Origin: Candidatus Omnitrophota bacterium
Lineage (GTDB): Bacteria; Omnitrophota; Gorgyraeia; JAHJTE01
Direction: 5' to 3'
DNA: 33,777 nt
Assembly: GCA_020058285.1 (NCBI GenBank)
Contig: JAGVEL010000006.1
Location: 1 to 33,777 of the forward strand
The translations under genes and the position numbers were made by a program. Under the pieces are notes generated by a model. The model made no database searches and was not told the DNA's origin. It saw nothing but the letters and a program-made list of their open reading frames with translations. Numbering within the stretch: the first letter of the stretch is position 1; every line of letters starts with the position of its first letter. Below, piece after piece: positions 1,461 through 19,275 of this stretch.

Positions 1461-2882
1461 ATGGCAAAAATACTGTTTATTCATAAACTTTGGTATGAAT
1501 CCATTGGCGTAATGCAGATTTCTGCTGTAGTGAAAAATGCTGGCCACGAGTCATACCTTTACATGGATAATGGTAGTGCATATAAGTTGATTCAGTTTAT
1601 TGGGGAAATTAAACCAGATATCATTGGCTATTCGATAATGACCGGACAACACCACTGGGCTTTAGAAACCGCTTCAATTTTAAAAAGAAAATTGAAAACA
1701 ATTAAACCTCTCATTGTTTTTGGGGGGCCTCATCCTACTTTTTCGCCTGAGATTATAGATAATGAGCCGGTTGATATTATTTGCCGCGGGGAAGGAGAAG
1801 GAGCAGTTTTGGATTTGATGAATTCTATCGAAAACAAGAAAAGTTTTTTAAATATTCCAAATCTTTGGGTCAAAAAAAACGGAGAAATTATTAAAAATAT
1901 ATTAAGGCCCTTGATAAAGGATTTGGATTCTTTGCCTTTTTTAGATCGGGACCTTTTTTATAAATATAGTTATTTTCGGGATAACCCGAACAAAATGGTG
2001 ATGGCTTCAAGGGGTTGCCCTTTTAATTGCTCTTTTTGTTTTAATGAAAAGTATAGGGAGCTTTACAACATAAAAGGATCAAAGATTAAAAGGAGAGGTT
2101 ATCAAAATGTGATAGAGGAGATAGAGTTATTAAAAAGGAAATATAAGAAGACGAGAATCGTTAGATTTCATGACGATATCTTTACTTTTGATAAAGAATG
2201 GCTTGATAATTTTTTAAAGCTTTACAAGAGAAAAATAATGCTTCCTTTTATGTGTTATATAAAAGCCGGGTTGGATGACGAGGAAACGATAAAAAAACTC
2301 TCAGAAACTGGTTGCGTAGGCGTTACCTTTGGGATAGAAACCGGGAACGAAAATCTACGGTTTCGCCTGTTAAATAAAAAAATTTCTAATAGGCAAATAT
2401 GTCATACAGCTTATTTATTAAAGAAATACAAAATTCCTTTTTATGTTAATAACATCTTTTTTATTCCCGAAATTAGCATTGATAATGTATGGGAAACTGT
2501 AGCAATGAATCAGAAAATAAAAGCAGATTATGTTGTGGCCAGCATCTTTCAACCTTTACCAGGCACATCAATCAATGAAAGCTTATTCAAAACTGGAGCA
2601 ATAAAAGAAGGTTACTTAAATGACATAAAAAATATTTATTCTTTCTCCGCAGTTAAATCCAAGAATGAGGACATAGAGAAAAATATTTACTATCTTTTCT
2701 ATTTATTAGTAAAATTTCCATGGATAACCCCTTTTGTCAAGCAAGTGATTAAATGCAGGCCCAATATTTTATTTTCATTAATTTTTAAAATAACAGCAGG
2801 TATTGACTATTGGCTGCGAAACAGATTGAGCTTTGCGAGATTCCTTAGAGAAGCGTATCATCATTATGACTTTAGAGGGTAA
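1461..2882 (+). CDS. B12-binding-domain radical SAM protein (rSAM-1)
   Basis: N-terminal cobalamin-binding-like Rossmann region (GGPHPTF...ICRGEGEGAVLDL); radical SAM CxxxCxxC motif in ASRGCPFNCSFCFNEKYR; FGIETGNE downstream. Confidence 0.9.
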   Translation: MAKILFIHKLWYESIGVMQISAVVKNAGHESYLYMDNGSAYKLIQFIGEIKPDIIGYSIMTGQHHWALETASILKRKLKTIKPLIVFGGPHPTFSPEIIDNEPVDIICRGEGEGAVLDLMNSIENKKSFLNIPNLWVKKNGEIIKNILRPLIKDLDSLPFLDRDLFYKYSYFRDNPNKMVMASRGCPFNCSFCFNEKYRELYNIKGSKIKRRGYQNVIEEIELLKRKYKKTRIVRFHDDIFTFDKEWLDNFLKLYKRKIMLPFMCYIKAGLDDEETIKKLSETGCVGVTFGIETGNENLRFRLLNKKISNRQICHTAYLLKKYKIPFYVNNIFFIPEISIDNVWETVAMNQKIKADYVVASIFQPLPGTSINESLFKTGAIKEGYLNDIKNIYSFSAVKSKNEDIEKNIYYLFYLLVKFPWITPFVKQVIKCRPNILFSLIFKITAGIDYWLRNRLSFARFLREAYHHYDFRG

Positions 2883-4233
2883 AAAAATTATACTTTTACG
2901 ATTGGTTGCGGATGATGTTATTGATGGGCCGCATCCAAGAAACAAAATTCCTCCCCTAGAACTTAAGTATATCGAAGCCCTGCTGAAAGAAATGAAAGGT
3001 ATAAATGTGGAATTATTCGATCAAATTATTTATAAATATAAAGATACTGAAGTTATAGATTATATTAATAAAGTCAACCCGCAGATTATTTTAATTTCTT
3101 TTACGACCCTAGAAAGACACAAAATAGAAAAACTTGTCAAATCGTGTAAGAAAGACAACACTTTATTTGTTGGCGTTGGACAGGGCGTAGCTTTCTATAG
3201 CGATAGATACAGAGATTGGTTAATGGGGTATTTTGATTTGCTTATCCCGGGAGAGCCAGAAATAATCTTTATCTCATGTATAGATAAGATTTTAAACGGA
3301 TATAATTCCTATGAATTACGTAAGGAAATATGGGATAGTTATCTTCGAGAAGGGGCGTATATAGTAGAAGATGTAAATCTTTTACCTATCCCCAAATACG
3401 AACCTTTAGAAATAAAGAATTATGGATCTATATATCCCGTTAGAATTAATAAAAGATTAAAATGGGGTTACGTGCTCTCTAGCAGAGGTTGTCCGCATAG
3501 TTGTATCTTTTGCAGTCCATGCATGAGAAAATCATATGGACATAAGATTAGATATAGAAATGTTAGTTCCGTTATCGATGAGATAGAAGAGTTGATTGTA
3601 TTGGGCGTTAATATAATTTCTTTTGAGGATGATGATTTTACATATTCTTCTAGGCAAGTAGAATTGGTTTGCAGAGAGATAATAGAAAGAGGTATTAAAA
3701 TAAATTGGATAGCACATGCTAGAGTCGATGAGATTACCTTGGGTTTAATCAGGATTATGGAAAAAAGCGGGTGCAAACTGTTAAGATTTGGAATCGAGTC
3801 TGGCCAAGAGAAGGTAATAAATTGTATTAGAAAAGGAAATGGAGCGACATGGAGGGTACAAACAGAAGAGGTGTTTTTTCAGCTAAAAAAATCTGGGATA
3901 GATGTCAGCGCCATGTTTATGGTAGGGAATCCTAAAGAAACAAAAAAGGATATTGAAGACACAATAGAGTTTTCTAAAAAAATAAAACCGGATTCTATAC
4001 AAGTTGCTTTATTTGAAGTTTATCCTGGATCTTCTTTATTCAGTTCTTTAAACCAAGAAGACAGGGATAAGATACTTGAATATCCTTCGTATCATTATAG
4101 AGATATTTCGTTGAACATGAGCAGCTTAAAAAAAGAAGAGTTGATGTGTTTACACAGTAAATTCTATAGAGATTTTATATTAAGATTACAGTACCTTTTT
4201 TTACATATAGGTAAATTTTTTTATTTTATTTAA
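2866..4233 (+). CDS. B12-binding-domain radical SAM protein (rSAM-2)
   Basis: SSRGCPHSCIFCSPCMRK (CxxxCxxC); FGIESGQEKV; PGEPEIIF in the N-terminal B12-like domain. ATG at 2866 preferred over the TTG at 2833 in the track; overlaps rSAM-1 by 17 nt. Confidence 0.88.
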   Translation: MTLEGKKIILLRLVADDVIDGPHPRNKIPPLELKYIEALLKEMKGINVELFDQIIYKYKDTEVIDYINKVNPQIILISFTTLERHKIEKLVKSCKKDNTLFVGVGQGVAFYSDRYRDWLMGYFDLLIPGEPEIIFISCIDKILNGYNSYELRKEIWDSYLREGAYIVEDVNLLPIPKYEPLEIKNYGSIYPVRINKRLKWGYVLSSRGCPHSCIFCSPCMRKSYGHKIRYRNVSSVIDEIEELIVLGVNIISFEDDDFTYSSRQVELVCREIIERGIKINWIAHARVDEITLGLIRIMEKSGCKLLRFGIESGQEKVINCIRKGNGATWRVQTEEVFFQLKKSGIDVSAMFMVGNPKETKKDIEDTIEFSKKIKPDSIQVALFEVYPGSSLFSSLNQEDRDKILEYPSYHYRDISLNMSSLKKEELMCLHSKFYRDFILRLQYLFLHIGKFFYFI

Positions 4234-4297
4234 AAAATCAGGCAGTTTTTAGGAGTTTGCTTAAGGGGTTGTTCAAGTTTTCAATTTTTCGAAAAAT

Positions 4298-5542
4298 ATG
4301 TATATAAGAATTTTACCTCGCCGGAAAGTCGAAATCTCATTGAAAGAAGTCAGCGCGCTATGGAAATCTATATGTCTAAGAGGTTGGAGAGCGGAAATAC
4401 AGAAGGAAAATTTTGAAAAAGAATTCGCCCGTTATATAGGGGTTAAACATGCGATAATTGTTCCAAGCGCAAGAGCGGGTCTTTCTATTCTTTTAGATAG
4501 TTTAGAGTTTCAAGAAGGCGATGAAATAGTGCTTTCTTCTTACAATTACCATGTTATACCAGCTTTAATAAAGCTCAAAGGGTTTAAACCTGTATTTATT
4601 GATATAGATCCTGACAGCTGGAATATCAATACGGCATTAATTGAAGGTTATATTACACCTAAAACACGGTGTATAATAGCCACTCATCTTTTTGGAAAGG
4701 CTTGTAATATAGAAGAGATAGTGTGTATTTGCAAAAAATATAGTTTGATCCTCATAGAAGACGTTGCCCATTCCTGCGGAGCGGTATATAGGGGCATAAA
4801 GCTTGGAAAATTCGGAGATGCTGCTTATTTCAGCTTTGGTACGGGAAAGGCATTAGTTGCTTTTGGAGGAGGCATGCTTGTGACCGACAAGGATTCTATT
4901 CATACAAATGTCCGAGAAAGACTGGGTAATATAACCTACAGTAAACACAACCTCAGGGCTTTTATAAAAATAGCCGCTGAAGTCTATTTTACTAATAAAG
5001 CAATCTTTTCTCTTTTCGTATATCCGGTTATAGTAATTATGAACTTTATCGGTTCTGATCTTGTAGATAGATTGATTGAAGACAAATACACTTTAGAAGA
5101 CGGGAAGATAGTTGGAAACCTGCCTTTTTATGACTTTCAAGTCGCTGTCGGCCAGGTACAATTAAAACGGCTTGAGGGGCTGAACAATAAACGGATATGT
5201 AATGCACGTTTATTATCCAAACTGCTCAGCGATATCGATAAAATAAAGGTTCCCCCTGTGGCTGATGATGGAACAGATGTTGCTTTATACTATTGTGTAG
5301 TTACGGATAAAATAAAGGCATTAAGAAAGTATCTTACTTTGAGAGGGGTGGACACAAAAAGAGGCACGATTAAGGCATGTTCTGCGCTAAATTTTTTCAA
5401 TAATTCAACAAGATGTCCTGTTGCAGAAAAAATTTCGGACAACGTTATTGAATTGCCATGCTATCCGGATCTTACTATAAGGGATATTTATTATCAGGCG
5501 AATCTCATACGAAAGTTTTATGGTAGCAAGTTATTGAAATAA
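4298..5542 (+). CDS. DegT/DnrJ/EryC1/StrS-family PLP aminotransferase
   Basis: HAIIVPSARAGLSILLDSL, PVFIDIDPDSWNI, IEDVAHSCGAVYRGIKLGKFGDAAYFSFGTGKAL; typical fold-type I sugar aminotransferase segments. Confidence 0.88.
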   Translation: MYIRILPRRKVEISLKEVSALWKSICLRGWRAEIQKENFEKEFARYIGVKHAIIVPSARAGLSILLDSLEFQEGDEIVLSSYNYHVIPALIKLKGFKPVFIDIDPDSWNINTALIEGYITPKTRCIIATHLFGKACNIEEIVCICKKYSLILIEDVAHSCGAVYRGIKLGKFGDAAYFSFGTGKALVAFGGGMLVTDKDSIHTNVRERLGNITYSKHNLRAFIKIAAEVYFTNKAIFSLFVYPVIVIMNFIGSDLVDRLIEDKYTLEDGKIVGNLPFYDFQVAVGQVQLKRLEGLNNKRICNARLLSKLLSDIDKIKVPPVADDGTDVALYYCVVTDKIKALRKYLTLRGVDTKRGTIKACSALNFFNNSTRCPVAEKISDNVIELPCYPDLTIRDIYYQANLIRKFYGSKLLK

Positions 5543-5552
5543 GCTTTTCAAA

Positions 5553-5876
5553 CATGTTTTAAGAAGGCACAAAACGGAAGAATGTAACTATTCAGTAATT
5601 ATACCGATATATAACGAATCTGGTTATGTTTTACTTCTATGTAACGCGCTTCGTGATGTAATGGATAATTTGCACGAATCATACGAGATAATTTTTATAA
5701 ATGATGGTTCAATTCCGGCAGGCATAGATTATTTAGAAAACAAGATGGATAAAAGCATCGTCAGAATTATCAATCCTCCTAAGCATGTTGGCCAGGTAAA
5801 TGTTTTGGCGAGCGGTAAAGTATGCTTTGGTTGTTCTTTTTGGACGGGAGCCATTGTCAGCTATAAAAAATTTTAG
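5553..5876 (+). pseudogene. Truncated GT2 (dolichyl-phosphate-mannose-synthase-like) glycosyltransferase fragment
   Basis: In-frame reading RHKTEECNYSVIIPIYNESGYVLLLCNALRDVMDNLHESYEIIFINDGS is a GT2 N-terminus. No plausible start codon lies before SVIIPIYNES, and the frame ends after about 100 aa, without the catalytic C-terminal half. Confidence 0.7.
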
Positions 5877-5887
5877 AGGGAAATGAA

Positions 5888-6922
5888 ATGCAAGCTGCGG
5901 TAATTATTCCTGTCACTAGGCCAAAATCTCTTTATCTATGCATGCAAGGACTGATGCGTCAGACATTCCCTCATGATCAATTTGAAATTATTTTAATTAA
6001 AGATAGTGATATGATTTTGGAATTGGAGAATGCGGATATAAAAATAACCCAGATTAAAGAGGATATATTACTTCCGACTTTTCGGAGAAACTTAGGTGTT
6101 AAAAAGACAGATGCTAATATATTAGCATTCTTAGGCGATGATACTCTTCCTCCTGTAGGCTGGCTCCAGAATGCTATCTGGCATATAGAAGAGGAAAAAA
6201 TAGACGGGGCCAGCGGTCCCTTTTTGCATTTACAAAATAATTTATCCTTGGGGAGTAGGTTAGCTAATGCTACCAGGGAGTCTTTTTTTTTAGAAGGAGA
6301 TGAAATTTGCAATATTCATGAAAAAAAACTAGTGAAGTTTTATAATATTCCATTATGTAATGTTGTGATTAAAAGAGAGGTTTGGGATTCAGTCGGAGGA
6401 TTTAATGAGGTAGTCGCGAATTACCATATGGACGATTGCGAATTTTTTTACCTGGCCAATAAGAGAGGGTATAAATTTTATAATATCCCTCAAATCGCAG
6501 TTCAGCATGCTATTGAATCATTTCCGCTAGGGTACTTGAAAAAGAAATTTACCACGCGGTTCTATACAGGAGTAAACGCCGCTATCTTTAATGAAATTTA
6601 CCGCGAAATCCCCGTTATACGTTTAGGATTCTTGGTCTATCCTTTTATAATTATTGTATTTTTATTAGTGATTAATAACTGGTTTAATATGGCAGTATTT
6701 CTTATAATTTATTTTGGATTAGCAATTTGGTTTTCTCGAAAGACGTTCACCAAGAATAAAAAAGTGTTTATATTGTTGCCCATAGTGTTTTTTCTAACTC
6801 ACCTGACAATTTTTATAGCATTTACTTCGGGCATCCTTTACTTTTTAATGAAAAAGAAGAGTTTCCAGGTAATTATTGAGAATAAAAAGATAAGATTAAA
6901 GAAGTGTCTGAATGCGGTCTGA
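5888..6922 (+). CDS. GT2-family glycosyltransferase with C-terminal transmembrane segments
   Basis: AAVIIPVTRPKSLYLCMQGLMRQTFPHDQFEIILIKD; FLGDDTLPPVGWL; MDDCEFFYLANKRGYKFYNIPQIAVQH; hydrophobic C-terminus. Confidence 0.85.
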   Translation: MQAAVIIPVTRPKSLYLCMQGLMRQTFPHDQFEIILIKDSDMILELENADIKITQIKEDILLPTFRRNLGVKKTDANILAFLGDDTLPPVGWLQNAIWHIEEEKIDGASGPFLHLQNNLSLGSRLANATRESFFLEGDEICNIHEKKLVKFYNIPLCNVVIKREVWDSVGGFNEVVANYHMDDCEFFYLANKRGYKFYNIPQIAVQHAIESFPLGYLKKKFTTRFYTGVNAAIFNEIYREIPVIRLGFLVYPFIIIVFLLVINNWFNMAVFLIIYFGLAIWFSRKTFTKNKKVFILLPIVFFLTHLTIFIAFTSGILYFLMKKKSFQVIIENKKIRLKKCLNAV

Positions 6923-6952
6923 AGTTGTGGAATCTACTAGAGGATATTTACC

Positions 6953-8452
6953 TTGATAAACAATAACCCCAAGCGCATATTTAACTTTCCAGTTTTAATT
7001 ATTATCTCGGCAGTTCCAATTTTTGGGTTAGCCATTTGGTTCATCGCTGATCCGGTAAGAGCTGCTCGGCTGGATAGGTATATTCTTTACCATGTCGATG
7101 AGTTATTAAGATATGCCTACATAAAAATGTCCCTTTACAATCACTGGATATTTTTAAACCCATATGCAAAATTGGGTTATGTGTTGATCAATTCCTTATT
7201 TTTACATATCCTATTCTTGGGTATATCTTCGCTGAGAATAGTCAATTCTATTTTTTCTTTGGGTGTACTTTTTTCGATATATAAAATAACCCAAAAAATA
7301 AAATTTTCCGAAAGCGGTTCATCACTAGCGTTACTTTTAACATTGACCTTCCCAGTATATTTTCTGACCTCTATCTCGGCATTAGTAGAGATCATGTTTT
7401 GTTTTGTTCTTATTTACGCGGTTTATTTATTGTATTGCAAAAGATATTTTTTATCCTCTTTAATGGCTGCCCTTCTTCCGGTTATTAGGCAAGAAGGTGT
7501 GGTATTTTTGTTGATCTGGCTATTAGTGTTACCTAAAAAACTTAAAATCAGATTTGGATTGTTTATACCGTTGCCCTTTTTGATCTGGAGCATGTTGAAT
7601 AAGATCTTATTAGGGCATCCATTTTTTTACACTTTTTTTTGCAATTTGCCTGATCAAGCCCCGCCTAATTCTGTAGCTCCATTATCTCAATTTTCCCATC
7701 TCGTCGGTGTATTAGGTATTCATCCCATATTTATCAGCTGTTGCCTAGGATTGGTGGTTAGTTATAGAAAGATTAAATACCGGTATCTGTTTATCCCCTT
7801 TATTTCTTATCTAGCAATAATTTTAGCGGCAAATATTCTGCATTTAATAGACGCCAAGGCTTTCTCGCGGGAAATAAGATTTTTGATACCCTTAATTCCT
7901 TTTATGGCAATCTATGGGGCTTCTGTCTTTGAATGCCTGTTCGCTGATAGAAAAACAATAAAAAAATATCTTTTGTTATTTAGTGTAGCAATATTACCAT
8001 TTATTACTATTTATCAGATAGGACAATTGCAGAAAGACCCTACCGTTATTGGTGATTCTCTTAATCCAGAAGAGGAGATTTTGATAAAAGAGATAGGTTG
8101 TTGGTTAAATGCGTATATGGAAGCAAATAAAGTTACAAATATTTATATTCCCGGAGATTTAGTTCCGGACAAGATTATACGCCGTTTGTGGATCTATTTA
8201 CGGGGTAATATAACATATTATGCTATAATTGGGCTCATGGAATCTTACAAGCCAAAAGGGCATCAGCCATTAGATATGGCCACATATGTTATTGTTCCGC
8301 CAGAGAAAGGCATGAGAGGAATATTCATTACAAAGAGACAATATGATAAAACTGAGAATACGCTGAGTGAAGTTGATTACGTATCGTTGAGAACCGAGGC
8401 CTCGTTGCCTTTGTTTATTTATCTTATACAGAAAAGTGGTAACTACAGATAA
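6953..8452 (+). CDS. Polytopic GT39/ArnT-like membrane glycosyltransferase (paralog A)
   Basis: Many predicted TM helices; clear paralogy to 17782..19275 (RAARLDRYILYHVDELLRYAYIKMSLYNHWIFLNPYAK; LLPVIRQEG). TTG start. Confidence 0.65.
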   Translation: MINNNPKRIFNFPVLIIISAVPIFGLAIWFIADPVRAARLDRYILYHVDELLRYAYIKMSLYNHWIFLNPYAKLGYVLINSLFLHILFLGISSLRIVNSIFSLGVLFSIYKITQKIKFSESGSSLALLLTLTFPVYFLTSISALVEIMFCFVLIYAVYLLYCKRYFLSSLMAALLPVIRQEGVVFLLIWLLVLPKKLKIRFGLFIPLPFLIWSMLNKILLGHPFFYTFFCNLPDQAPPNSVAPLSQFSHLVGVLGIHPIFISCCLGLVVSYRKIKYRYLFIPFISYLAIILAANILHLIDAKAFSREIRFLIPLIPFMAIYGASVFECLFADRKTIKKYLLLFSVAILPFITIYQIGQLQKDPTVIGDSLNPEEEILIKEIGCWLNAYMEANKVTNIYIPGDLVPDKIIRRLWIYLRGNITYYAIIGLMESYKPKGHQPLDMATYVIVPPEKGMRGIFITKRQYDKTENTLSEVDYVSLRTEASLPLFIYLIQKSGNYR

Positions 8453-9521
8453 GAGGGCAAAAGGGGGATTTTTTTTGTTTATTGTCGCTCCAATAAGTAG
8501 AGTCGCGGAAGTAACCTCTGTTATTGAAGCAGGGGCTGATGAAATATATTGCGGATTGTTGGTTAACGAGCAATTGGATAGTTATGCCAATGTTAATTGT
8601 CTTAATCGTCGGGCCGAAATCTCATCTAACCTTACAAACTATGAGGAGCTTAAAGAAGTTATCAGAATAGCTCGCTCGAAAAATATCCCGGTCAATCTTA
8701 CTTTAAACGAATTTTACGATCAAGCTCAGGTCTTTATGGCTTTGAGGCAATTAGAAAAAAGCATGGAGTGTGGCATAGACAGGATTATTGTGGCAGATAT
8801 CGGACTTCTATCTGAAATTAAAAAAAGAAAATATCCAAACTTGAAATTACATATTAGTTCTTGCGCCTCTGTTTTTAATTCTGAGACCGTAGAGTTTTAC
8901 AAAATGTTTAATCCTTCTAGAATGATACTTAATAGACAACTTACCCTTTCTGAAATTGAACATTTAAAGAGATCTTTCAGTAAGCTGGAAATGGAGGTAT
9001 TTATTTTGAATGAAAGATGCTATAACATCGATGGATTCTGCACTTTTCTCCATGGGAGATTTTCTCCCATCTACAATAACTTTACACGTCTGGCATTGAA
9101 TATAATGCAGAATAGAATTATAGAATATATCCCACGCGGTATATTGCAAGTATTGCATAGGCATGTCGTGAGAAATAGCCTTACCTGTTGTTCACCTTAT
9201 GCAGCGCAATATGGCCTGGCAGGAGCTAATATTGAGGCAGGAAGCCATAAAGAAAAGGTGGTTTTTAGTAAGCCGGATTCATTTTTACAAGCCTGTGGCA
9301 TTTGCGCTTTGTATGATTTTTATAAAATAGGGCTAAAGTTCTTTAAGATTTCAGGAAGATCTTTATTGGCCAATAAAACAGCGGACATTCGTTTAGTAAA
9401 AGAGGCAATCAGCATTTTACAAAAAGAGCAATTGGTGAAAGAAAAATTTTGTATAAAAATAAAAGAGCTTGTTCAACAAAAATATTCCAGGACATGTTCT
9501 CCCGAATATTGTTATTATTAG
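8436..9521 (+). CDS. U32-family protein, UbiU/PrtC-like
   Basis: EAGADEIYCGL and ANVNCLNRRAEISSNLTNYEEL; cysteine pattern ERCYNIDGFC ... LTCCSPY ... CGICALYDFY typical of [4Fe-4S]-binding U32 proteins. Confidence 0.82.
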   Translation: MVTTDKRAKGGFFLFIVAPISRVAEVTSVIEAGADEIYCGLLVNEQLDSYANVNCLNRRAEISSNLTNYEELKEVIRIARSKNIPVNLTLNEFYDQAQVFMALRQLEKSMECGIDRIIVADIGLLSEIKKRKYPNLKLHISSCASVFNSETVEFYKMFNPSRMILNRQLTLSEIEHLKRSFSKLEMEVFILNERCYNIDGFCTFLHGRFSPIYNNFTRLALNIMQNRIIEYIPRGILQVLHRHVVRNSLTCCSPYAAQYGLAGANIEAGSHKEKVVFSKPDSFLQACGICALYDFYKIGLKFFKISGRSLLANKTADIRLVKEAISILQKEQLVKEKFCIKIKELVQQKYSRTCSPEYCYY

Positions 9522-9577
9522 GATAGTACTGCATTTAAAAAATAAAGAAACTCAAGGACTTCATAAAGCTTGAAATT

Positions 9578-10366
9578 ATGGAAAAGGCTGTCTATTTTTC
9601 AGACATCAATAAGTTAAGATCGCATAACTTTGATTATGATAGGATATATTTTGGCAATGAATTTTGCGATGAGCTGATACCATCCTTAGACGACCTTAAA
9701 TTCGCTATTTCTGTAGCTAAAGAAAAAAATAAAGACCTTAGCTTTGTTACTTGTTATGTCAGCGAATATAAAATAAAAAAGTATTACCATCTTCTTAATA
9801 CCTTGGCAGGATTAGCCCCTCGTAGTGAAGTAATCATTAATGATTGGGGTGTATTAGGGATATGCCTTCAAAATAATCTTACGCCAGTTTTAGGGAGGTT
9901 ATTAGTAAGGCAGAAACGAGACCCGCGCATCTCGTTTTTTATGAAGCTACTCCCGGATTTATCAAGATTACGCGTACATCAGACAGGATTGAACAATTAT
10001 TTTAAGGACTTTTTGAAAACGCAGAGCATAAATAGAATAGAATTAGATAATTTAATCCAAGGAATAGATATGAATGAATTGCAGGATGTAAATTTTGGAT
10101 ATTCCGTTTATATACCGTATGGGTATGTAACTACCACAAGGATATGTTTCTTTCGTAATAAAAATATAAGCAAAAATAAAAGGTTTAGTATACTGCCGTG
10201 TATTAATAAATCAGAATGTGGTTTGGCTAAATTATATAATAAGCAGATAAAAGACAATTTATTTATGAGAGGTAATACGATATTTTTTAAAAATACTTCC
10301 CAATCTTTTTTAAAGTTGGATTCCAGAATCAACAGGATTGTGCATGAACCTGAGATACCAGATTAA
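9578..10366 (+). CDS. Short U32-like protein, UbiV-like partner
   Basis: IYFGNEFCDEL near the N-terminus; EVIINDWGVL; later Cys cluster RICFF...ILPCINKSECGL; directly follows the UbiU-like gene. Confidence 0.65.
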   Translation: MEKAVYFSDINKLRSHNFDYDRIYFGNEFCDELIPSLDDLKFAISVAKEKNKDLSFVTCYVSEYKIKKYYHLLNTLAGLAPRSEVIINDWGVLGICLQNNLTPVLGRLLVRQKRDPRISFFMKLLPDLSRLRVHQTGLNNYFKDFLKTQSINRIELDNLIQGIDMNELQDVNFGYSVYIPYGYVTTTRICFFRNKNISKNKRFSILPCINKSECGLAKLYNKQIKDNLFMRGNTIFFKNTSQSFLKLDSRINRIVHEPEIPD

Positions 10367-10497
10367 AAATAAAATCAAAACCAATTTTTTGCTTGTTTTG
10401 CGAATATTTCGCAGGTATATGCAGCTGAGCGGATTGATGTAAATTATGCCAGAGTAGCAGAAGAAAAAATCAGAGGCCTTACGATATACATAGGAAA

Positions 10498-11544
10498 ATG
10501 TTTAGTAAATTAATAATTTTGATCTCACTTTTATTATGCTGTGTTATATTATCTATATGGCATTGCTATTTTAAAAGAGGGGCAAGATTAACCTTTACTT
10601 TTTTCTTTTTTGCTTTTCTTTATATTTTGAGATGGGTATTAAAAAATATGGTTAGTCCTTCGCTTTTGTTAAAAACAGCCAAACAATTGACCTTAGGTGG
10701 ATTGTTTACAAATTCTGATCCGGCATTTAATTGGGTGTATATCTTTTTAGTGGCTGTTATTACTTTATTGGAATGGATATTTTTATTTTATCTAGGTTGG
10801 TTTGTGGCAGAGAAAATTATGCAGCGCTTTAGTTTTTTTCAGAGGCGTCTTTTTCCTACCTTGTTGTTAAGTTCCTTGGCAACAGCGAGCTTTCTATATC
10901 CCATTGAAGCAATTGGGCATAATCTTGGCTGGTGGCGATGGCAATCATTTATTCAAGTGTCTTATGATGTATTTTTTATAGATTGTCCTCCCCATGCTTT
11001 AAAGTCAGGATTTTATTTTATTTTGTACTTTCTAGCAGCCTATTTTTTGATCGAGTGCTCAAAGTTTAAACATAGGAATTGGAAAATGATATTTTTTATA
11101 TTACCATTTGTGCATCTCTGGACAATAAGATTTTTTGGTAATAGTTTACCGAGGGTAGTTGAGCGCATGGGGATTTTTCTAATAGTGGTGGCGCTAACAT
11201 TTCTTAGTACCTTGGAATTGGAAAATGTAAATCCGGGCAATCTTTATAAGTTTAGAATTATAGACAGGATTTTTTCCTTGCTAGTAATTTCTATATTGTC
11301 CATTTTATGTTTTACGGTTATATTTATAACTAATAAACCAGTGCTTATTTTTACCCTCTTACCAGCATTATTTTTTTATTTGTTTTCTATGAAAAATATG
11401 TCTCTGGGGGTAATTTTCATTTTTTGTATTCTGGCATTTCTTATGGGTAAAACTGTAGCAACTGTTAGCTTAATTCCGGTATCGATATTTTTTATTTTTA
11501 AAATATGCGACTATAGCGAAAGGGATTTGATAAGATGGACTTAA
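10498..11544 (+). CDS. Polytopic membrane protein, tandem paralog 1 (unassigned family)
   Basis: CYFKRGARLTFTFFFFAF, LYPIEAIGHNLGWWRW, AAYFLIECSKFKHRNWKMIFFILPF; shares blocks with the next three ORFs. Confidence 0.85.
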   Translation: MFSKLIILISLLLCCVILSIWHCYFKRGARLTFTFFFFAFLYILRWVLKNMVSPSLLLKTAKQLTLGGLFTNSDPAFNWVYIFLVAVITLLEWIFLFYLGWFVAEKIMQRFSFFQRRLFPTLLLSSLATASFLYPIEAIGHNLGWWRWQSFIQVSYDVFFIDCPPHALKSGFYFILYFLAAYFLIECSKFKHRNWKMIFFILPFVHLWTIRFFGNSLPRVVERMGIFLIVVALTFLSTLELENVNPGNLYKFRIIDRIFSLLVISILSILCFTVIFITNKPVLIFTLLPALFFYLFSMKNMSLGVIFIFCILAFLMGKTVATVSLIPVSIFFIFKICDYSERDLIRWT

Positions 11545-12548
11545 AAATAGTTCTTCTAATATGTTTTTTTAGTATTTTTATATTTATTGTTCATTCATAT
11601 TTTAGCAGAGGGTTTAGACTGACATTTAATTTTTTCTTTTTCGCCTTTCTCGTAGCTATTATCAAAGAAGGACCGATGATGATAAATGGAATATTAGTTA
11701 AGAATCCGACTATGCCGTATGAATTCTTAACAAAGAATACTTCTGTAATGATCGAAACGATGCTTGCGATAGTAGGGTGGGTTTTTACTATTTATTTGGG
11801 TTGGTATATTGCTAATAGGATTGCGCAAAGGCTAGGCGTATGGGAAAATCGGATTTTTCCGGTCGTATTTATAAGTGGCCTAGTGACAGCAAGCGTTGGT
11901 TATGCAGTAGAAGCTACAGCTATAGGGATCGGGTGGTGGCAATGGACAATAGAGGACATAAGATTAGCCGGATTTTTGGCTGGGGGCGTGCCATTGATCG
12001 TTTTTGAAACATGGACGCATTTTCCTACACAATATTTGCTTATGCCTTATTCTATTATAGAATGCTCAAGATTCAAAAGGGCCAGCTGGAAAGGTATATT
12101 TTTTCTTATCCCTTTTGTGCATAGCGTTAGTACGCAGTTCAGACCAGAACTAATAAGAACCAGCATCGAGCATATTGCTTTAATTATTCTTTTCATTCTT
12201 GCTGTTATAAGTCCATTGCGCTTTGAGTATTCAGGGGTTCGACGTCCGTCTCTAAGATGGAATTTGAACTTGAAATTATTGGAATCGCTGCCGATGTTGA
12301 TTATAATGATGTTGGTATTGATTTTGGTTTTTCTCGATTTGATTAAGATACATAATGCGCAGTTACTTATATCGCTATTACCAGTAATATTTTTTATATT
12401 ACTTGCAATCAAAAGGATACCTTTATTGTGGATAGTATTTTTTGCTTTGTTATGCCCATTGATATTAAATAGGCAGGCACTAGTGGCGGTAGTACCGGTT
12501 ACTGTTATATTAGGATTTAAAATTTTAGCAAGAATTAAGGCTGGTTAA
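11535..12548 (+). CDS. Polytopic membrane protein, tandem paralog 2
   Basis: SYFSRGFRLTFNFFFFAF, YAVEATAIGIGWWQW, YSIIECSRFKRASWKGIFFLIPF; 10-nt overlap with paralog 1. Confidence 0.85.
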   Translation: MDLKIVLLICFFSIFIFIVHSYFSRGFRLTFNFFFFAFLVAIIKEGPMMINGILVKNPTMPYEFLTKNTSVMIETMLAIVGWVFTIYLGWYIANRIAQRLGVWENRIFPVVFISGLVTASVGYAVEATAIGIGWWQWTIEDIRLAGFLAGGVPLIVFETWTHFPTQYLLMPYSIIECSRFKRASWKGIFFLIPFVHSVSTQFRPELIRTSIEHIALIILFILAVISPLRFEYSGVRRPSLRWNLNLKLLESLPMLIIMMLVLILVFLDLIKIHNAQLLISLLPVIFFILLAIKRIPLLWIVFFALLCPLILNRQALVAVVPVTVILGFKILARIKAG

Positions 12549-12564
12549 GTAGAAAGATAATCGC

Positions 12565-13560
12565 ATGAATCAGGCATTGTTGATTAATTTTTGCGGTATT
12601 GGGATTATTACACTTATCCTGCATTCCTATTTTAAAAGAGGGCTAGCTTTAACATTAAATTTTTTTTTATTTGCGTTTATGTTGACTTTTACCAAAGGCG
12701 GAGAGCATAGTTTTAAATTCATGATTTTGGCTAAAGCTGGCCCTCAGACTATATTTCCTGCGGTAATTTCTACCCTGATATGGATATTATCATTTTACCT
12801 CTCATGGTGCATAGCTGAGAAGGTTGTTGAAAGAATGCCTTATTTTAAAAATAGAGTTTTTCCCGTGTTATTCTTTGCTGGGATATTTGTTGCTACTTTC
12901 GCTTATGCTATTGAGGCAGCAGCAATAAATATTGGCGGGTGGAATGCCCCAGTTGTTAATGGTAATGAGTTTTTACTTATCCCCTTTTATGTAGTCAAGA
13001 GGCAGTTTTATTTTTCTGTATATTTTTTGGCAGCGTATTTTTTAATAGCGTGTTCTGAGTATAAAAATAAAGACTGGAAGATAGTTTTCTTTATATTGCC
13101 ATTTATCAATACCTGGATTCCGCAATTTTTTGGCTTAGGCCTGGCACAATTTATTAAAGAGATACTAACGTTGATCATTCTCCTTTTGCTTGCTTTCAGG
13201 AGTCCTTTACGCTTTTATCCTGCGGGCACTAAACAATCTAGTGGAGGGGTTTTTTTAAAGACAGAATTAGTAGATTTATTGCCGGTAGCAGTTATGGTAA
13301 TATTGACTTTCATTTTATTTTTTATTGATACAGTTAAGTTACACGATATGAGACTGCTTGTGTCGTTACTACCTATGGGATTTTTTATATTACTTGCTAT
13401 TAAGAGAATTCCTTTATTCTGGATAACATTTATTGCTCTTTTGTGTCTTGTGGCATTAAAAAAGCTAGCAATACCAGCTATGCTGCCAGTTGGATTATTA
13501 GTTCTTTTTCAGTTGATCATTAAATCTTCCTTTATAAAAAATAATTCTTTCTCTCAATGA
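12565..13560 (+). CDS. Polytopic membrane protein, tandem paralog 3 (GWW motif altered)
   Basis: SYFKRGLALTLNFFLFAF, YAIEAAAINIGGWNAP, AAYFLIACSEYKNKDWKIVFFILPF; ends LLVSLLPMGFFILLAIKRIPLF. Confidence 0.85.
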   Translation: MNQALLINFCGIGIITLILHSYFKRGLALTLNFFLFAFMLTFTKGGEHSFKFMILAKAGPQTIFPAVISTLIWILSFYLSWCIAEKVVERMPYFKNRVFPVLFFAGIFVATFAYAIEAAAINIGGWNAPVVNGNEFLLIPFYVVKRQFYFSVYFLAAYFLIACSEYKNKDWKIVFFILPFINTWIPQFFGLGLAQFIKEILTLIILLLLAFRSPLRFYPAGTKQSSGGVFLKTELVDLLPVAVMVILTFILFFIDTVKLHDMRLLVSLLPMGFFILLAIKRIPLFWITFIALLCLVALKKLAIPAMLPVGLLVLFQLIIKSSFIKNNSFSQ

Positions 13561-14573
13561 CTGTTTTACACCTATTTTCTTTTGCGTTTATAGGGCTTGT
13601 CTTACTCGTAGTCCATTCATATTTTAAACGTGGATTTCGACTAACCTTGAGTTTTTTTCTATTTTCTTTTATTGTTGGAATGAGAAAAGAAGCTGGTACT
13701 TTCTTGGGGCCAGCTTTGTCTAACATGAGATACCCCACACCTTTTATATATACTACCAATTACCCGTTGCTATTTTCTGTACTGAATACAACTATTGGTT
13801 GGATGCTTGCTTTTTACCTCTCATGGTGCATTGCCGAAAAAATTGTTGAGAGGTCAGCTCGTCTTCAAGGCAAGATTTTTCCTACATTGTTGTTTGCCGG
13901 TATGGTTATTGCCGCGCTTTCGTATGCCATCGAAGCCACTGCTATAAATATTGGTTGGTGGAAGTGGGTTTTTTTTGATCTACACTTAGCCGGATATCTA
14001 GTTGGCGGAGTACATCTTTTTGCGCTCAGCGCATGGTTTTATTTTGCCCTTAATTTTTTAACCCCATATTTTCTGATAGAATGCTCGCGCTTTCGTAAAA
14101 CCAATTGGAAATGCATATTTTTTCTTATTCCTTTTTCGAGGACCTGCACAATGCTTTTCCTTGGTTCAGATTTACCGCGCATGACTCACGAGTTTGGCAC
14201 ATTCTTTATACTGATGACGCTTGTTATCACTAATCCACTATCTTTTAATTATCCAAACTTTAAAGAAAGATTAGTTGGTGATTCTCTTGTGCGCAGGATG
14301 GTAGATATTATTCCTTATATTGTGATGTTTATCATTTTGGCTGTACTTATTTTCATCGATATCATCCAGATAAAGAATCCTCATCTACTGATTAGCCTTT
14401 TTCCGCTAGCCGTTTTTATCTTTTTGAGCTTACAGAAGATACCCGTACGGTTAATTGTATTATTTACTTTAGTAATAGGATTAATTTTCGGCAAAGTCGG
14501 GATTTCAGCATGCCTACCTGGGTTGATTTTTTTATGCCTGGATTACTTTTTAAGTTTAAGACACACCCTTTAA
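13557..14573 (+). CDS. Polytopic membrane protein, tandem paralog 4
   Basis: SYFKRGFRLTLSFFLFSF, YAIEATAINIGWWKW, TPYFLIECSRFRKTNWKCIFFLIPF; ATGA overlap with paralog 3. Confidence 0.85.
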   Translation: MTVLHLFSFAFIGLVLLVVHSYFKRGFRLTLSFFLFSFIVGMRKEAGTFLGPALSNMRYPTPFIYTTNYPLLFSVLNTTIGWMLAFYLSWCIAEKIVERSARLQGKIFPTLLFAGMVIAALSYAIEATAINIGWWKWVFFDLHLAGYLVGGVHLFALSAWFYFALNFLTPYFLIECSRFRKTNWKCIFFLIPFSRTCTMLFLGSDLPRMTHEFGTFFILMTLVITNPLSFNYPNFKERLVGDSLVRRMVDIIPYIVMFIILAVLIFIDIIQIKNPHLLISLFPLAVFIFLSLQKIPVRLIVLFTLVIGLIFGKVGISACLPGLIFLCLDYFLSLRHTL

Positions 14574-14576
14574 AAT

Positions 14577-15944
14577 ATGAAAAAGATATTATTAGTATCC
14601 TTGGCAATGGATAAATTCAGCTATTCAGCTGAAGGGAGATTTAAGTTTAAGTATATGCAACGCCGACCTTTACTTGGACTATTGTATATATTCTCAGCCA
14701 TAGAGTCTAGAGGAGTAGAGTGTGATTTTTTAGACCAGTCAATAGGCAATTTTTCTGTGGAAGATTTAATCAACCGTATTAATATCCAGGATTATCTTTT
14801 TGTTGGATTCTATGCTCAGTTGTTAGTAAAAGATAAAGTGATTGAATATATAAGAGCTATCAAAGAAAAATGCTTAGATAAGAATATTATTGTAGGAGGT
14901 CCGGGTTATTTATGTTACGAAGAATTTTTAGATAATGGCTGTGATATTGTTTGCCGGGGTGAAGGAGAGCTTACTATTACCGAGATCGTTGATTATATGC
15001 AAGGAAAGAAAAGAATCGAGGAGATAGACGGCATTGTTTATAAAAGAAATGGCGTTATTAATTATAATAAAGACAGAGAGTTAATCAGTAATTTAGACTC
15101 TGTCTCTTTTCCTTTGTGGCACAAAGTAGACATTGGTTTGTATTATGATTATTCTGTATTACCTATGCAGAAGCCCTTTGCGGTTATGATTACTTCCAGG
15201 GGGTGTTTGTTTCAGTGCGCTTTTTGCAGCTCACCGTTTTTATGGAGAAATATTTTCCGGAGTCGTTCAGTTGAAAATGTCATTCAAGAGATCGATATCC
15301 TTGTGCTTAGGCATGGCATTAGATATATTATTTTTCAAGACGACGTATTTGGCATAGATAATAACTGGCTTAAAGAATTTTGCAATTCTTTGATAAGTAG
15401 AGGTTATAGAAATTTGAGATGGATGTGTATATTGCACCCCCTCACCTTAAAAAAAGAATCTTGTTCACTCATTAAATTAATGAAGAAAGCAGGGTGTAAT
15501 TTATTCACCTTTGGCCTTCAATCTGCTAACCCACTTATTTTGGAAAAAATTGGACGAAACCCCATCGAGCCTAGGGCATTAAAAGATATAATTAAAATTG
15601 CAAATAGGCTTGGCATTATGACCTCCGTTGATTTTATACTTGGTTTTCCATTGGAGACAAAAGATACTGTCCGTGAAAATATTAATTTTGCATTGAATCT
15701 AAAGCCACATCTTGTCAATTTTCATCCTTTACTACTGGAACCGGGTTCAGAATTAGAAAGGGACTACAAGAAATGTGGCTTTTCTGAAGAAGAGTTGCTT
15801 AGACTCTGTTCTAGTGCTAACCGGGAGTTTTATTTTAAGATTCAAAATATATTCAGGATTATGAAGTTCATGTTTAGAGAAAATGTGTTTCTTTTTTTAA
15901 AAATAGCGAAGTTTTTTGTAGCCCTGAGATATTATCTAAAATAA
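14577..15944 (+). CDS. B12-binding-domain radical SAM protein (rSAM-3)
   Basis: VGGPGYLCYEEFLDNGCDIVCRGEGELTI; ITSRGCLFQCAFCSSPFLWR (CxxxCxxC); FGLQSANPLILEKIGR. Confidence 0.9.
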   Translation: MKKILLVSLAMDKFSYSAEGRFKFKYMQRRPLLGLLYIFSAIESRGVECDFLDQSIGNFSVEDLINRINIQDYLFVGFYAQLLVKDKVIEYIRAIKEKCLDKNIIVGGPGYLCYEEFLDNGCDIVCRGEGELTITEIVDYMQGKKRIEEIDGIVYKRNGVINYNKDRELISNLDSVSFPLWHKVDIGLYYDYSVLPMQKPFAVMITSRGCLFQCAFCSSPFLWRNIFRSRSVENVIQEIDILVLRHGIRYIIFQDDVFGIDNNWLKEFCNSLISRGYRNLRWMCILHPLTLKKESCSLIKLMKKAGCNLFTFGLQSANPLILEKIGRNPIEPRALKDIIKIANRLGIMTSVDFILGFPLETKDTVRENINFALNLKPHLVNFHPLLLEPGSELERDYKKCGFSEEELLRLCSSANREFYFKIQNIFRIMKFMFRENVFLFLKIAKFFVALRYYLK

Positions 15945-16156
15945 TATGATCTCCAAGATGCGTCAGATATCGATCTCTTTGTGGCTTTATTAAGTATTTC
16001 ATGAATATGGCTGTGCAGCTACTTCAGGTAAGGAATGCCGATATTGTTATAATCTAGCACGTAAAGTTGCGCGAATACGCGAATAAATTAAAAAATGATA
16101 GAAGATTATAAATCTTATCGATAAAGTTTAGTGTCTATAGATATATTTAAATATTT

Positions 16157-17773
16157 ATGAGTCTTATACTTAAAATTAAGAATATTTTTTATAACAAAAT
16201 ATACAGTAAGTATAAAATTGAATTATTTTTATTCAGTTTGATGTTTTTTCTAGGATTGCCGTTAAGATTGTATAAGTTGAGTAATAAAAGTCTATGGTTT
16301 GATGAGGCAGATGTGGTTCTGGATTCTGTAAATATATTAGATTCTTTTAAGGTATTAGAACTCCATAATCCAATTATAGGTTATAAAATATTTGTTTTTT
16401 ATTGGCGTCAGATTTGCCCATATATACATGAGTGGATGCTTCGGTTGCCCTCGGTTATCTTTGCAATAGCAGCAATATTTTTTATATATAAATTAGCTGC
16501 TTTATTGTTTAATAAAGATGTTGGAATAATAAGTTCTTTTTTGCTTTCCATTTCCCCCGTGCATATATATTATTCACAAGAAGCAGTTGCCTATTCATTT
16601 TTAGCATTTAGTACTATAGTAACCGTTTATTGTTTGATGCGATTTACTAGAGACGGGCATCCCGTTTTTTTCTACTATTATATTTTATTAAATATAATAA
16701 ATATATATACGCATCCCATAATGTGGTTTCTATTTTTAATAGAAAATATTATTGTTATTCTTAGAATAAAAAAATTTGAAGGAATTTACAGGAAAATAAT
16801 TTTATGTAATTTAATAGTAGTTATTATTTCTATACCATGTTTTTATTCGGTTTTTTTAGGAAGAAATTTTCTATTTGTGAAAAACAATTTTTATTTTGAA
16901 CGAACAGCAGGGTATATACCTCTTCCCACTTGGAAAAGTTTTTATCTTTTATTTAAAAATCTTACCATAGGCTATAATGCTCCAGATTTTATTTATCCGG
17001 CAGGCATATTCTTGTTTTTAATATTATTTCTTAAAGGAGTAGGGCAGCTGATTAAGAGAGAGAATGGAATCATAGTATTATTAGTTACATTATTGCCTCC
17101 TTTTATGGTATTTTTTATTGCTAGGGTCACCTCAATTTCCTATTATTTGGATAGGTATTTTGTTCCATTAGCGCCATTTTTTTATATCATAATTGCTTTT
17201 GCTATATGGAAGTTTAATGAAAAGAATATTAAAATTTTATTGATAGCCAGCACCTTGGTTTTATCAACAATTAGTTTAGGCAATTACTATCGCGATATTC
17301 TTCCTTTTGACGTTATAGCTGTACCTACAAAAAAAGAGATAAGAGAAGCGGCTGCTTATATAAACCAATCCTTAGAAAAAAAAGATATGATATTGCATAC
17401 TTGTCGAAATACGGCCTTACCTTTTGAATATTATTTTGATTTTTATTTTAATAAAACACAGGATGTTTTCAAAGATTATCCAGAGCGTAAAACTAATAAA
17501 CAGTATATTATATTTTGTCAGAAATTGGAAAATTCGATGCAATTATATAAATATATGATGCGAGATAAAAATCTGCAAAGCGAATACGTTCCTGTAGACA
17601 ATTATGAAATTAATAACGGTAGAGTTTTTTTGGTATTTTCATCATGGAAATTTGATGATTCAAGTATACCTGAGATATATGCCCTGCAATGGCTTGAGAA
17701 AAAATACACAATGGAAACGAAAAAGAATTTTAACGGTATTTCAGTCTATCTATTCACTAAGAGGGATATTTAA
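16157..17773 (+). CDS. GT39/ArnT-like polytopic membrane glycosyltransferase
   Basis: LPLRLYKLSNKSLWFDEADVVLDSV (LWxDEA signature); SPVHIYYSQEAVAYSFLAF; many TM segments and a soluble C-terminus. Confidence 0.8.
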   Translation: MSLILKIKNIFYNKIYSKYKIELFLFSLMFFLGLPLRLYKLSNKSLWFDEADVVLDSVNILDSFKVLELHNPIIGYKIFVFYWRQICPYIHEWMLRLPSVIFAIAAIFFIYKLAALLFNKDVGIISSFLLSISPVHIYYSQEAVAYSFLAFSTIVTVYCLMRFTRDGHPVFFYYYILLNIINIYTHPIMWFLFLIENIIVILRIKKFEGIYRKIILCNLIVVIISIPCFYSVFLGRNFLFVKNNFYFERTAGYIPLPTWKSFYLLFKNLTIGYNAPDFIYPAGIFLFLILFLKGVGQLIKRENGIIVLLVTLLPPFMVFFIARVTSISYYLDRYFVPLAPFFYIIIAFAIWKFNEKNIKILLIASTLVLSTISLGNYYRDILPFDVIAVPTKKEIREAAAYINQSLEKKDMILHTCRNTALPFEYYFDFYFNKTQDVFKDYPERKTNKQYIIFCQKLENSMQLYKYMMRDKNLQSEYVPVDNYEINNGRVFLVFSSWKFDDSSIPEIYALQWLEKKYTMETKKNFNGISVYLFTKRDI

Positions 17774-17781
17774 AAATATCG

Positions 17782-19275
17782 GTGAAAAACAAATCGCCTA
17801 ATTTATTTCAATCATTTTGTGGCTGGGTTAACCTGCCAGGCTATTGCGTAATCTCTTTTTCCCTGATTTTAATTATATTTTTGATATTCGATTGGCTTGT
17901 GGCTACTTCTTTACGAGCAGCTAAAATAGATCATTATATTTTATTCTCATTGGCTGAGACCTCCCGTCTTTTTTATGCAAAAACCGCCTTGCACAATCCT
18001 TTTGTATTTCTTAATCCTAATGCCAAACCTATTTATTCAATAATTTCTGCTATGTTTATCTTTATTTTTCCATTAGGCTTGTTTTCTTTAAAAGTATTAA
18101 ATTCCCTGCTTTCCATTGGCACTCTGGTGATTCTCTATAAATTAATAAGAAAAATGGGGTATGGAGATTTTGTAGCTACGATAGCCATAATACTTACCCT
18201 AACATTTCCTTTGTTTTTCTTGCTTTCAATATCGGCTTTGACTGAGATCTTATTTTGTTTTTTCTTGACCCTAGCTTTTTATTGCTTCTATTTGAAAAGA
18301 TATTTTAGTTCCGTTTTATTAATTTCTTTATTGCCGCTTATTCGACAGGAAGGAGCCCTGTATATCTTTATTATGTTATTTCTTCTGTTAAAAGAGAAAA
18401 AAATATACTACGCGTTCATTTTACCGATACCTTTGCTGGTTTGGATTTTATTGAATTTCTTTCTGTTAGAGCATTCTTTTATTTATCCACTTTTTGTATG
18501 TGTTGATTTACCGGGACCAACTGCTAAAAGCGACATAATGTCATTGGCTGAATTAAAAAATTTTCTTCCCGCGATATTTTGTCATCCTTTATTCTTCCTA
18601 TTTCCTATCGGATTTATACTTGCGATCTCAAAAAAACATTATTTACCTATTATAATCTCGTTAATATGCCAGAGCCTTTTTTTTATTATTGCCGCGATTA
18701 TTCAATTTTTAATTACAAAGCAAGTTTCTTATGCCTTTCGTTATATTGTACCTCTGATTCCTTTTATGGCTCTCATAACTGCAGGGATTTTTAATAACCT
18801 TGTCTTGGGGAAAAAATCAAAAATTATTGTTGTAGTTTTTATGTCAATTGTTTTAATAGGAATACTTATAAACAGAATAACTGCACTCCAAAAACATCCT
18901 AGAGTTGTTGCTGAAAGCATTACAGAAAAACAAGAGAGAGCAATAGAGGAAGCCGTTGTTTGGCTAAAAGCTTTTATTAAAGAAACTGGGATTCAGTATA
19001 TCTTTTATTCAGGGGATATGACTGACAATAAAATGATAAGGAGACTAAAAACTTATTTGGTTGATAGTATAGCAATGTATCCGGTTAAAGAGTTTAGGGA
19101 AGTTTACGACCCAGTAACTTTTAAAATTATCGAGAGAGAGTTTCGTAATTCTACTCTTACGGGACTTGTTTTGTTACTTGATCCTGAAAGAGAGAAAGAT
19201 TTTATTTTAAGTAAAAAAATAGAATCTTTAAAAAATTTTCCAGATATTCCTGTTTACCTGTATAGAAAATATTAG
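17782..19275 (+). CDS. Polytopic GT39/ArnT-like membrane glycosyltransferase (paralog B)
   Basis: Collinear similarity to 6953..8452 (RAAKIDHYILFSLAETSRLFYAKTALHNPFVFLNPNAKP; LLPLIRQEGALYIF). GTG start. Confidence 0.65.
   Translation: MKNKSPNLFQSFCGWVNLPGYCVISFSLILIIFLIFDWLVATSLRAAKIDHYILFSLAETSRLFYAKTALHNPFVFLNPNAKPIYSIISAMFIFIFPLGLFSLKVLNSLLSIGTLVILYKLIRKMGYGDFVATIAIILTLTFPLFFLLSISALTEILFCFFLTLAFYCFYLKRYFSSVLLISLLPLIRQEGALYIFIMLFLLLKEKKIYYAFILPIPLLVWILLNFFLLEHSFIYPLFVCVDLPGPTAKSDIMSLAELKNFLPAIFCHPLFFLFPIGFILAISKKHYLPIIISLICQSLFFIIAAIIQFLITKQVSYAFRYIVPLIPFMALITAGIFNNLVLGKKSKIIVVVFMSIVLIGILINRITALQKHPRVVAESITEKQERAIEEAVVWLKAFIKETGIQYIFYSGDMTDNKMIRRLKTYLVDSIAMYPVKEFREVYDPVTFKIIEREFRNSTLTGLVLLLDPEREKDFILSKKIESLKNFPDIPVYLYRKY

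Follow-up and report, generated by a model that had tools for sequence, protein, structure and literature searches.

Divergent CruF/DUF422-like membrane proteins encoded in tandem beside glycosyltransferase and radical SAM genes in Candidatus Omnitrophota

The stretch of DNA analysed here, hereafter the window, comprises 33,777 nucleotides (nt) from a Candidatus Omnitrophota bacterium (assembly GCA_020058285.1, contig JAGVEL010000006.1, positions 1 to 33,777 of the forward strand) and carries a tandem array of four genes for polytopic membrane proteins, named paralogs p1 to p4. All four are complete open reading frames (ORFs) on the plus strand, at 10498-11544 (p1, 348 amino acids, aa), 11535-12548 (p2, 337 aa), 12565-13560 (p3, 331 aa) and 13557-14573 (p4, 338 aa). 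As the initial annotation had described, p1 and p2 overlap by 10 nt, a gap of 16 nt separates p2 from p3, and p3 and p4 overlap at ATGA. The proteins are homologous end to end, with identities of ~30-36% (31, 33 and 33% for the other three against p1) and BLASTP matches of E=2e-37 over 326 columns for p1 and p2 and E=9e-48 over 339 columns for p1 and p3. The four tandem paralogs at 10498-14573 are therefore real, and none showed the failure to align that the annotation had named as grounds for giving them up.

Members of this family are present in five of 384 sampled Omnitrophota genomes, each with at least two copies, so the multi-copy arrangement recurs outside the window. The source genome (G000) has four copies; G018 has three plus one broken; in G118 (CG11) a short contig carries p3, p4 and the end of p2; G175 has three; and G314 (GMC4) has five, its p1-p4 being divided between two contigs that have one gene in common at their ends and the remaining copy lying on a third contig. 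The broken member in G018 (L019 14540-15611) contains several stops in its first half, and its second half is largely open. A maximum-likelihood (ML) tree supports orthologous groups for p1 (window and GMC4; 96/99), p2 (window and GMC4; 99/97), p3 (window and CG11; 99/96) and p4 (window, CG11, GMC4 and G175_a; 95/95). Many deep forks are weak, and GMC4_3, which occupies the place of p3 in the gene order, is unplaced in the tree. GMC4 belongs to another family and has supported p1, p2 and p4 orthologs; its genes follow one another as p1-p2-p3-p4, just as in the window, except that a transferase gene stands between p1 and p2. Because ordered orthologous paralogs are found in another family, the array is considered old, and the stepwise duplication proposed earlier is an old event rather than a recent one. 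Against their CG11 orthologs, p3 and p4 are under purifying selection (ratio of nonsynonymous to synonymous substitution, dN/dS, 0.16-0.32), p3 despite the partial loss of the site described below.

HMMER searches against Pfam, NCBIfam and PDB sequences gave no meaningful match for the window proteins or the family. AlphaFold2, run on 10 sequences, modelled p4 with a predicted template-modelling (pTM) score of 0.83 and p2 with one of 0.79. The two models have almost identical sets of helices, and the loop following the GWWxW motif is of low confidence. Foldseek searches of the PDB with the p4 and p2 models returned best E-values of 0.22 and 0.33, respectively, at TM-scores near 0.2. One model compared with BFVD showed no viral relative and no match with E < 0.2, the top partial match being an unnamed protein (A0A5K0U9U1; TMt 0.50, E 3.1). 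In Pfam, NCBIfam, PDB sequences and Foldseek alike, the array proteins thus fall outside assigned families, as first reported.

A faint resemblance to CruF/DUF422 carotenoid-biosynthesis proteins, mentioned with reserve in the initial annotation, was borne out by profile-profile comparison. Matches to PF04240 (DUF422/Caroten_synth) occur in 10 other Omnitrophota genomes, and hhalign of 17 family members against those 10 proteins gave Prob 93.5, P 2.2e-7 and a score of 59.8 (all P-values are for single comparisons, DUF422 having been tested because the first reading named it, with no large search behind the choice). With 17-18 members and 10-16 DUF422 proteins the results ranged over Prob 89-94, P 2e-6 to 2e-7 and scores of 52-60, while the four window paralogs alone scored 47-49 against the full DUF422 sets. 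Further DUF422 proteins were gathered by tblastn against plasmids, which gave one, zero and nine records, the first and five of the nine being added to the profile. The match spans ~135-160 columns, with an identity of ~16-19% in the aligned part. Controls scored far lower: 11.8 and 13.0 for reversed profiles, a mean of 14.2 (standard deviation 2.6, maximum 21.7) for 100 column shuffles that kept the hydrophobicity class, at most 15.9 for 100 block shuffles, and at most 21.7 for alignments of GT-C, GT39, Wzm and O-antigen-ligase-like proteins from the same loci. Seven near-invariant DUF422 hallmarks (E, Y, W, D/E, W-x-W and W, in 15-16 of 16 sequences; three column references) align with E45, F63, W82, E126, W135, W137 and W160 in p4 numbering, which is used throughout. 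Ancestry within the DUF422 superfamily is thus very probable on these profile and residue matches.

The family is best described as a divergent sister branch of DUF422/Caroten_synth (CruF-type) with a C-terminal extension of ~130 residues. We do not file it as PF04240 or CruF, for two reasons: the sequences fall below HMMER thresholds, and the phytoene/squalene synthase of the carotenoid pathway that would accompany a CruF was detected in only one of the five bearers, G175, and not in the source genome. Like PF04240, the array shows profile homology with hallmarks in register; unlike it, the array has the extra C-terminal residues and four paralogs, two of them with broken sites. Nearest in layout to the window family are long Omnitrophota DUF422 proteins (L052-L054, L056, L057; ~300-340 aa), which resemble it in length, also have a C-terminal extension, and differ in being single genes and clear PF04240 members. 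Their motif DAIAIRxGyWxW...GVP..N..AWM resembles EATAINIGWWKW...GV.....AWF of the array, and in the L052-L057 proteins the loops look, by eye, to be charged in the same pattern. Another small polytopic membrane enzyme that acts on carotenoid end groups, the lycopene cyclase domain (heterodimeric CrtYc/CrtYd type), appears by eye to form the N-terminal part of Deinococcus deserti L091, fused to a DUF422 part; its LPLEE motif is missing from the window proteins.

The hallmark residues tend to be kept or lost together. Of 17 scorable copies (one broken copy was left out), the 10 with E45 keep all six other hallmarks, allowing Y or F at 63, and each of the seven without E45 is short of at least one further hallmark residue. 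H20, T30, W90 and W184 are retained in every scorable copy, and each of the five genomes has both complete and incomplete copies. A perfect 10/7 split would arise by chance about once in 19,448 if the copies were independent, but the copies are related, only about four independent losses can be counted (p1-type, p3-type, G018_2 and G175_b), and the pattern was noticed after the fact; the all-or-none retention is therefore suggestive. Within the window, p2 and p4 have all seven hallmarks (F or Y for Y), p1 lacks E45, F63 and W160, and p3 lacks E45, W137, W160 and E175. The motifs once described as common to all four paralogs do exist, but not in all four: p3 has IGGWNA and IACS in place of GWWxW and ECS, and p1 is without other residues of the site. 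Judged from these residues, p2 and p4 are predicted to be catalytic and p1 and p3 to be non-catalytic partners, and we lean slightly towards an arrangement of active with inactive partners.

Loop charges place the conserved motifs on the two sides of the membrane. The mean number of lysine plus arginine residues (K+R) in odd loops is 2.3, 3.7, 3.5, 3.7 and 1.4, compared with 0-1.6 in even loops; by the positive-inside rule, HSYFKRG, E94 and ECSxFK would face the inside and the N-terminus and the EA...GWWxW loop the outside, so that the two conserved patches are predicted to lie on opposite membrane faces. The earlier proposal of an active site or ligand pocket at EA...GWWxW and ECSxFK is borne out in part. 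For EA...GWWxW it agrees with the way in which the DUF422 residues are kept all or none, whereas ECSxFK lies outside the DUF422-type site, on the opposite, positively charged and probably cytoplasmic face.

The array lies in an island (1461-19275) with a guanine-plus-cytosine (GC) content of 33%, against 41.5% downstream, in which all genes listed here are on the plus strand. Upstream of p1 are a B12-binding radical S-adenosylmethionine (SAM) protein (1461-2882), a radical SAM protein with a weak B12-binding match (2833-4233), a DegT/DnrJ-type sugar aminotransferase (4298-5542), a family 2 glycosyltransferase (GT2) with C-terminal membrane segments (5888-6922), a GT-C-like membrane protein of family A4 that adjoins the array in other genomes too (6953-8452), a UbiU-like U32 family protein that recurs beside the family in G175 (8436-9521), and a small UbiV-like protein paired with that U32 gene (9578-10366). 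The last is assigned by size, pairing and cysteine positions, with no Pfam match over the cut-off. Only 3 nt past p4 follows another B12-binding radical SAM protein (14577-15944), in an order also seen in CG11 (L006), then a GT39-like (PMT_2) membrane glycosyltransferase (16157-17773) and a second GT-C-like membrane protein of family A4 with a weak PMT match (17782-19275). Counting the weak match, the island has three B12-binding radical SAM proteins. Members of the GT-C family were found in eight of the 384 genomes, four of which are among the five bearers. UbiU and UbiV form an O2-independent hydroxylase pair (PMC6747719). The neighbouring pair is likewise a U32 protein with a smaller partner, with CX6C and other conserved cysteines (PMC6747719), but its U32 protein, at 94 bits, falls far under the 440 bits required of a UbiU equivalog. 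The neighbourhood of B12-radical SAM proteins, UbiU/UbiV-like pair, GT-C and GT2 points to a glycolipid or surface glycan. Horizontal transfer of the AT-rich island is not claimed: a KamA-like flank protein is 91% identical between G000 and G118, and vertical inheritance with loss is equally possible. Near the island's left edge, at 512-757 on the minus strand, lies a fragment that matches a recombinase zinc ribbon, though below the Pfam cut-off, and that may be what is left of a mobile element.

CruF, a hydratase that needs no cofactor, adds water to the carotenoid end C=C on the way to a glycosylated carotenoid (PMC6013536), myxoxanthophyll. A search for phytoene/squalene synthase (PF00494) found none in the source genome G000 or in G018, G118 and G314, which make up four of the five bearers. 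In contrast, it is present in all three tested genomes with a true PF04240 protein, on the same contig within ~8 kb in two of them, and it is also present in G262. The array neighbourhood contains transferases and radical SAM genes and no carotenoid gene. Because the bacterium shows no sign of carotenoid making, the proteins of the array probably act on a different lipid, one belonging to a surface-sugar pathway. The ancestry is well supported; the substrate, the reaction and the complex are inferred.

We tentatively propose, ancestry and partner arrangement included, a hetero-oligomeric CruF-like enzyme whose target is an isoprenoid C=C in a lipid. In this proposal p2 and p4 would be the enzymes, with the carboxylates E45 and E126 and the aromatics W82, W135, W137 and W160 at the periplasmic side of the membrane, and p1 and p3 would be non-catalytic partners in the hetero-oligomer. 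The carboxylates and aromatics may protonate the isoprenoid C=C, whereupon water would add or the bond would shift, as with CruF on carotenoids. That the proteins work in this way, as a hydratase or isomerase, on an isoprenoid other than a carotenoid is possible, if doubtful. The likely substrate would be a polyprenyl or other isoprenoid lipid of the surface-glycan pathway, and the product might be glycosylated by the neighbouring transferases, analogous to the CruF route to myxoxanthophyll. In its fullest form, two CruF-like catalytic and two pseudo-catalytic subunits would carry out O2-free hydration, isomerisation or cyclisation of a non-carotenoid isoprenoid lipid beside U32-type hydroxylases and B12-radical SAM proteins, together building an undescribed glycosylated membrane lipid; so specific a scheme is unlikely to hold in every part. 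For a family without annotation, these results provide an ancestry and a testable site. They suggest that a CruF/DUF422-type membrane protein has been reused beyond carotenoid metabolism, in organisms with little-known lipids. The seven-residue pattern sorts predicted enzymes from predicted partner subunits and shows which residues to mutate. Further, the recurrent set of CruF-like array, UbiU/UbiV-like pair, B12-radical SAM and GT-C genes marks candidate loci for undescribed anaerobic lipid or glycan modification.

Several results weigh against a CruF-like enzyme of this kind. PF04240 gives no HMMER match to family members even at E 10, let alone one above the gathering cut-off, and a comparison restricted to DUF422 proteins of other lineages than Omnitrophota (Bacillota, Nostoc, Vibrio, Deinococcus) reproduces the register with a P of only 0.007-0.058. 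PF00494 is present in the bearer G175, and the absence of carotenoid genes is read from drafts that are 88-97% complete. U32, radical SAM and GT-C genes also co-occur without the array: in G262 a stretch that combines GT-C, radical SAM and SGNH genes and a U32 pair with Wzm/Wzt-like and O-antigen-ligase-like genes has no array-family member. The functional link of the array is therefore by neighbourhood only, and the array gives the impression of an accessory to a locus of the surface-glycan type.

The strongest alternative, in itself somewhat unlikely, is that proteins of DUF422-fold descent serve the GT-C transferases as a lipid-binding partner, scaffold or flippase complex without chemistry, the acids and tryptophans holding a polyprenyl lipid. 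Four tandem copies adjoining GT-C genes would suit such a role, as would the keeping of two of the four despite an incomplete site and a patch of conserved basic residues, probably facing the cytoplasm, that could bind lipid phosphate. Pure binding, however, need not require the full DUF422 hallmark set, including two carboxylates, that 10 copies keep. It is improbable that the profile match reflects shared membrane-helix composition and that the family is unrelated to DUF422: the low aligned identity and the weak P of the external profile would allow it, but same-hydrophobicity controls reach at most 21.7 against 52-60, and the hallmarks stand in register with the column references. Polytopic, hydrophobic, multi-copy proteins could also be a generic transporter or permease family expanded in number, yet this is very improbable, as neither Pfam and NCBIfam nor the structural searches matched a known transporter family or fold, and the old paralogs keep distinct residue sets in each orthogroup. 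That the family makes or modifies carotenoids, with a synthase missed in the drafts or supplied elsewhere, draws on its kinship with CruF-type proteins and on PF00494 in G175, and is extremely improbable given the other four bearers, the true-PF04240 genomes and the gene neighbourhood.

Relatives of the neighbouring genes were seen at other loci. Pairs of a U32 protein and a small partner also lie at L020 10159-11969 and L084 11750-13638; the small-partner family occurs in 28 of 384 genomes, and its G175 member is without three of the conserved cysteines. A third U32-like type (~400 aa, PTNW start, many conserved cysteines), found at L045 298-1524, L020 6025-7254 and L086 5454-7858, directly adjoins array members in G314 and G175 and forms a tandem pair in G328. 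Next to the array in G175 (L041 2663-16776) are about ten successive radical SAM genes, several SPASM-like by eye, and Wzt/Wzm-like genes. A secreted protein of short-segment repeats, two examples of which have no Pfam match, recurs in glycan-type loci (L020 16108-16833, L019 7776-8483, L084 2472-3257 and L085 6091-7173) with the pattern 'GxVxxxxYxxGxIxV...PGxYxLxVPKNxGxIYI...NPIxVxxxDIxxIDI'.

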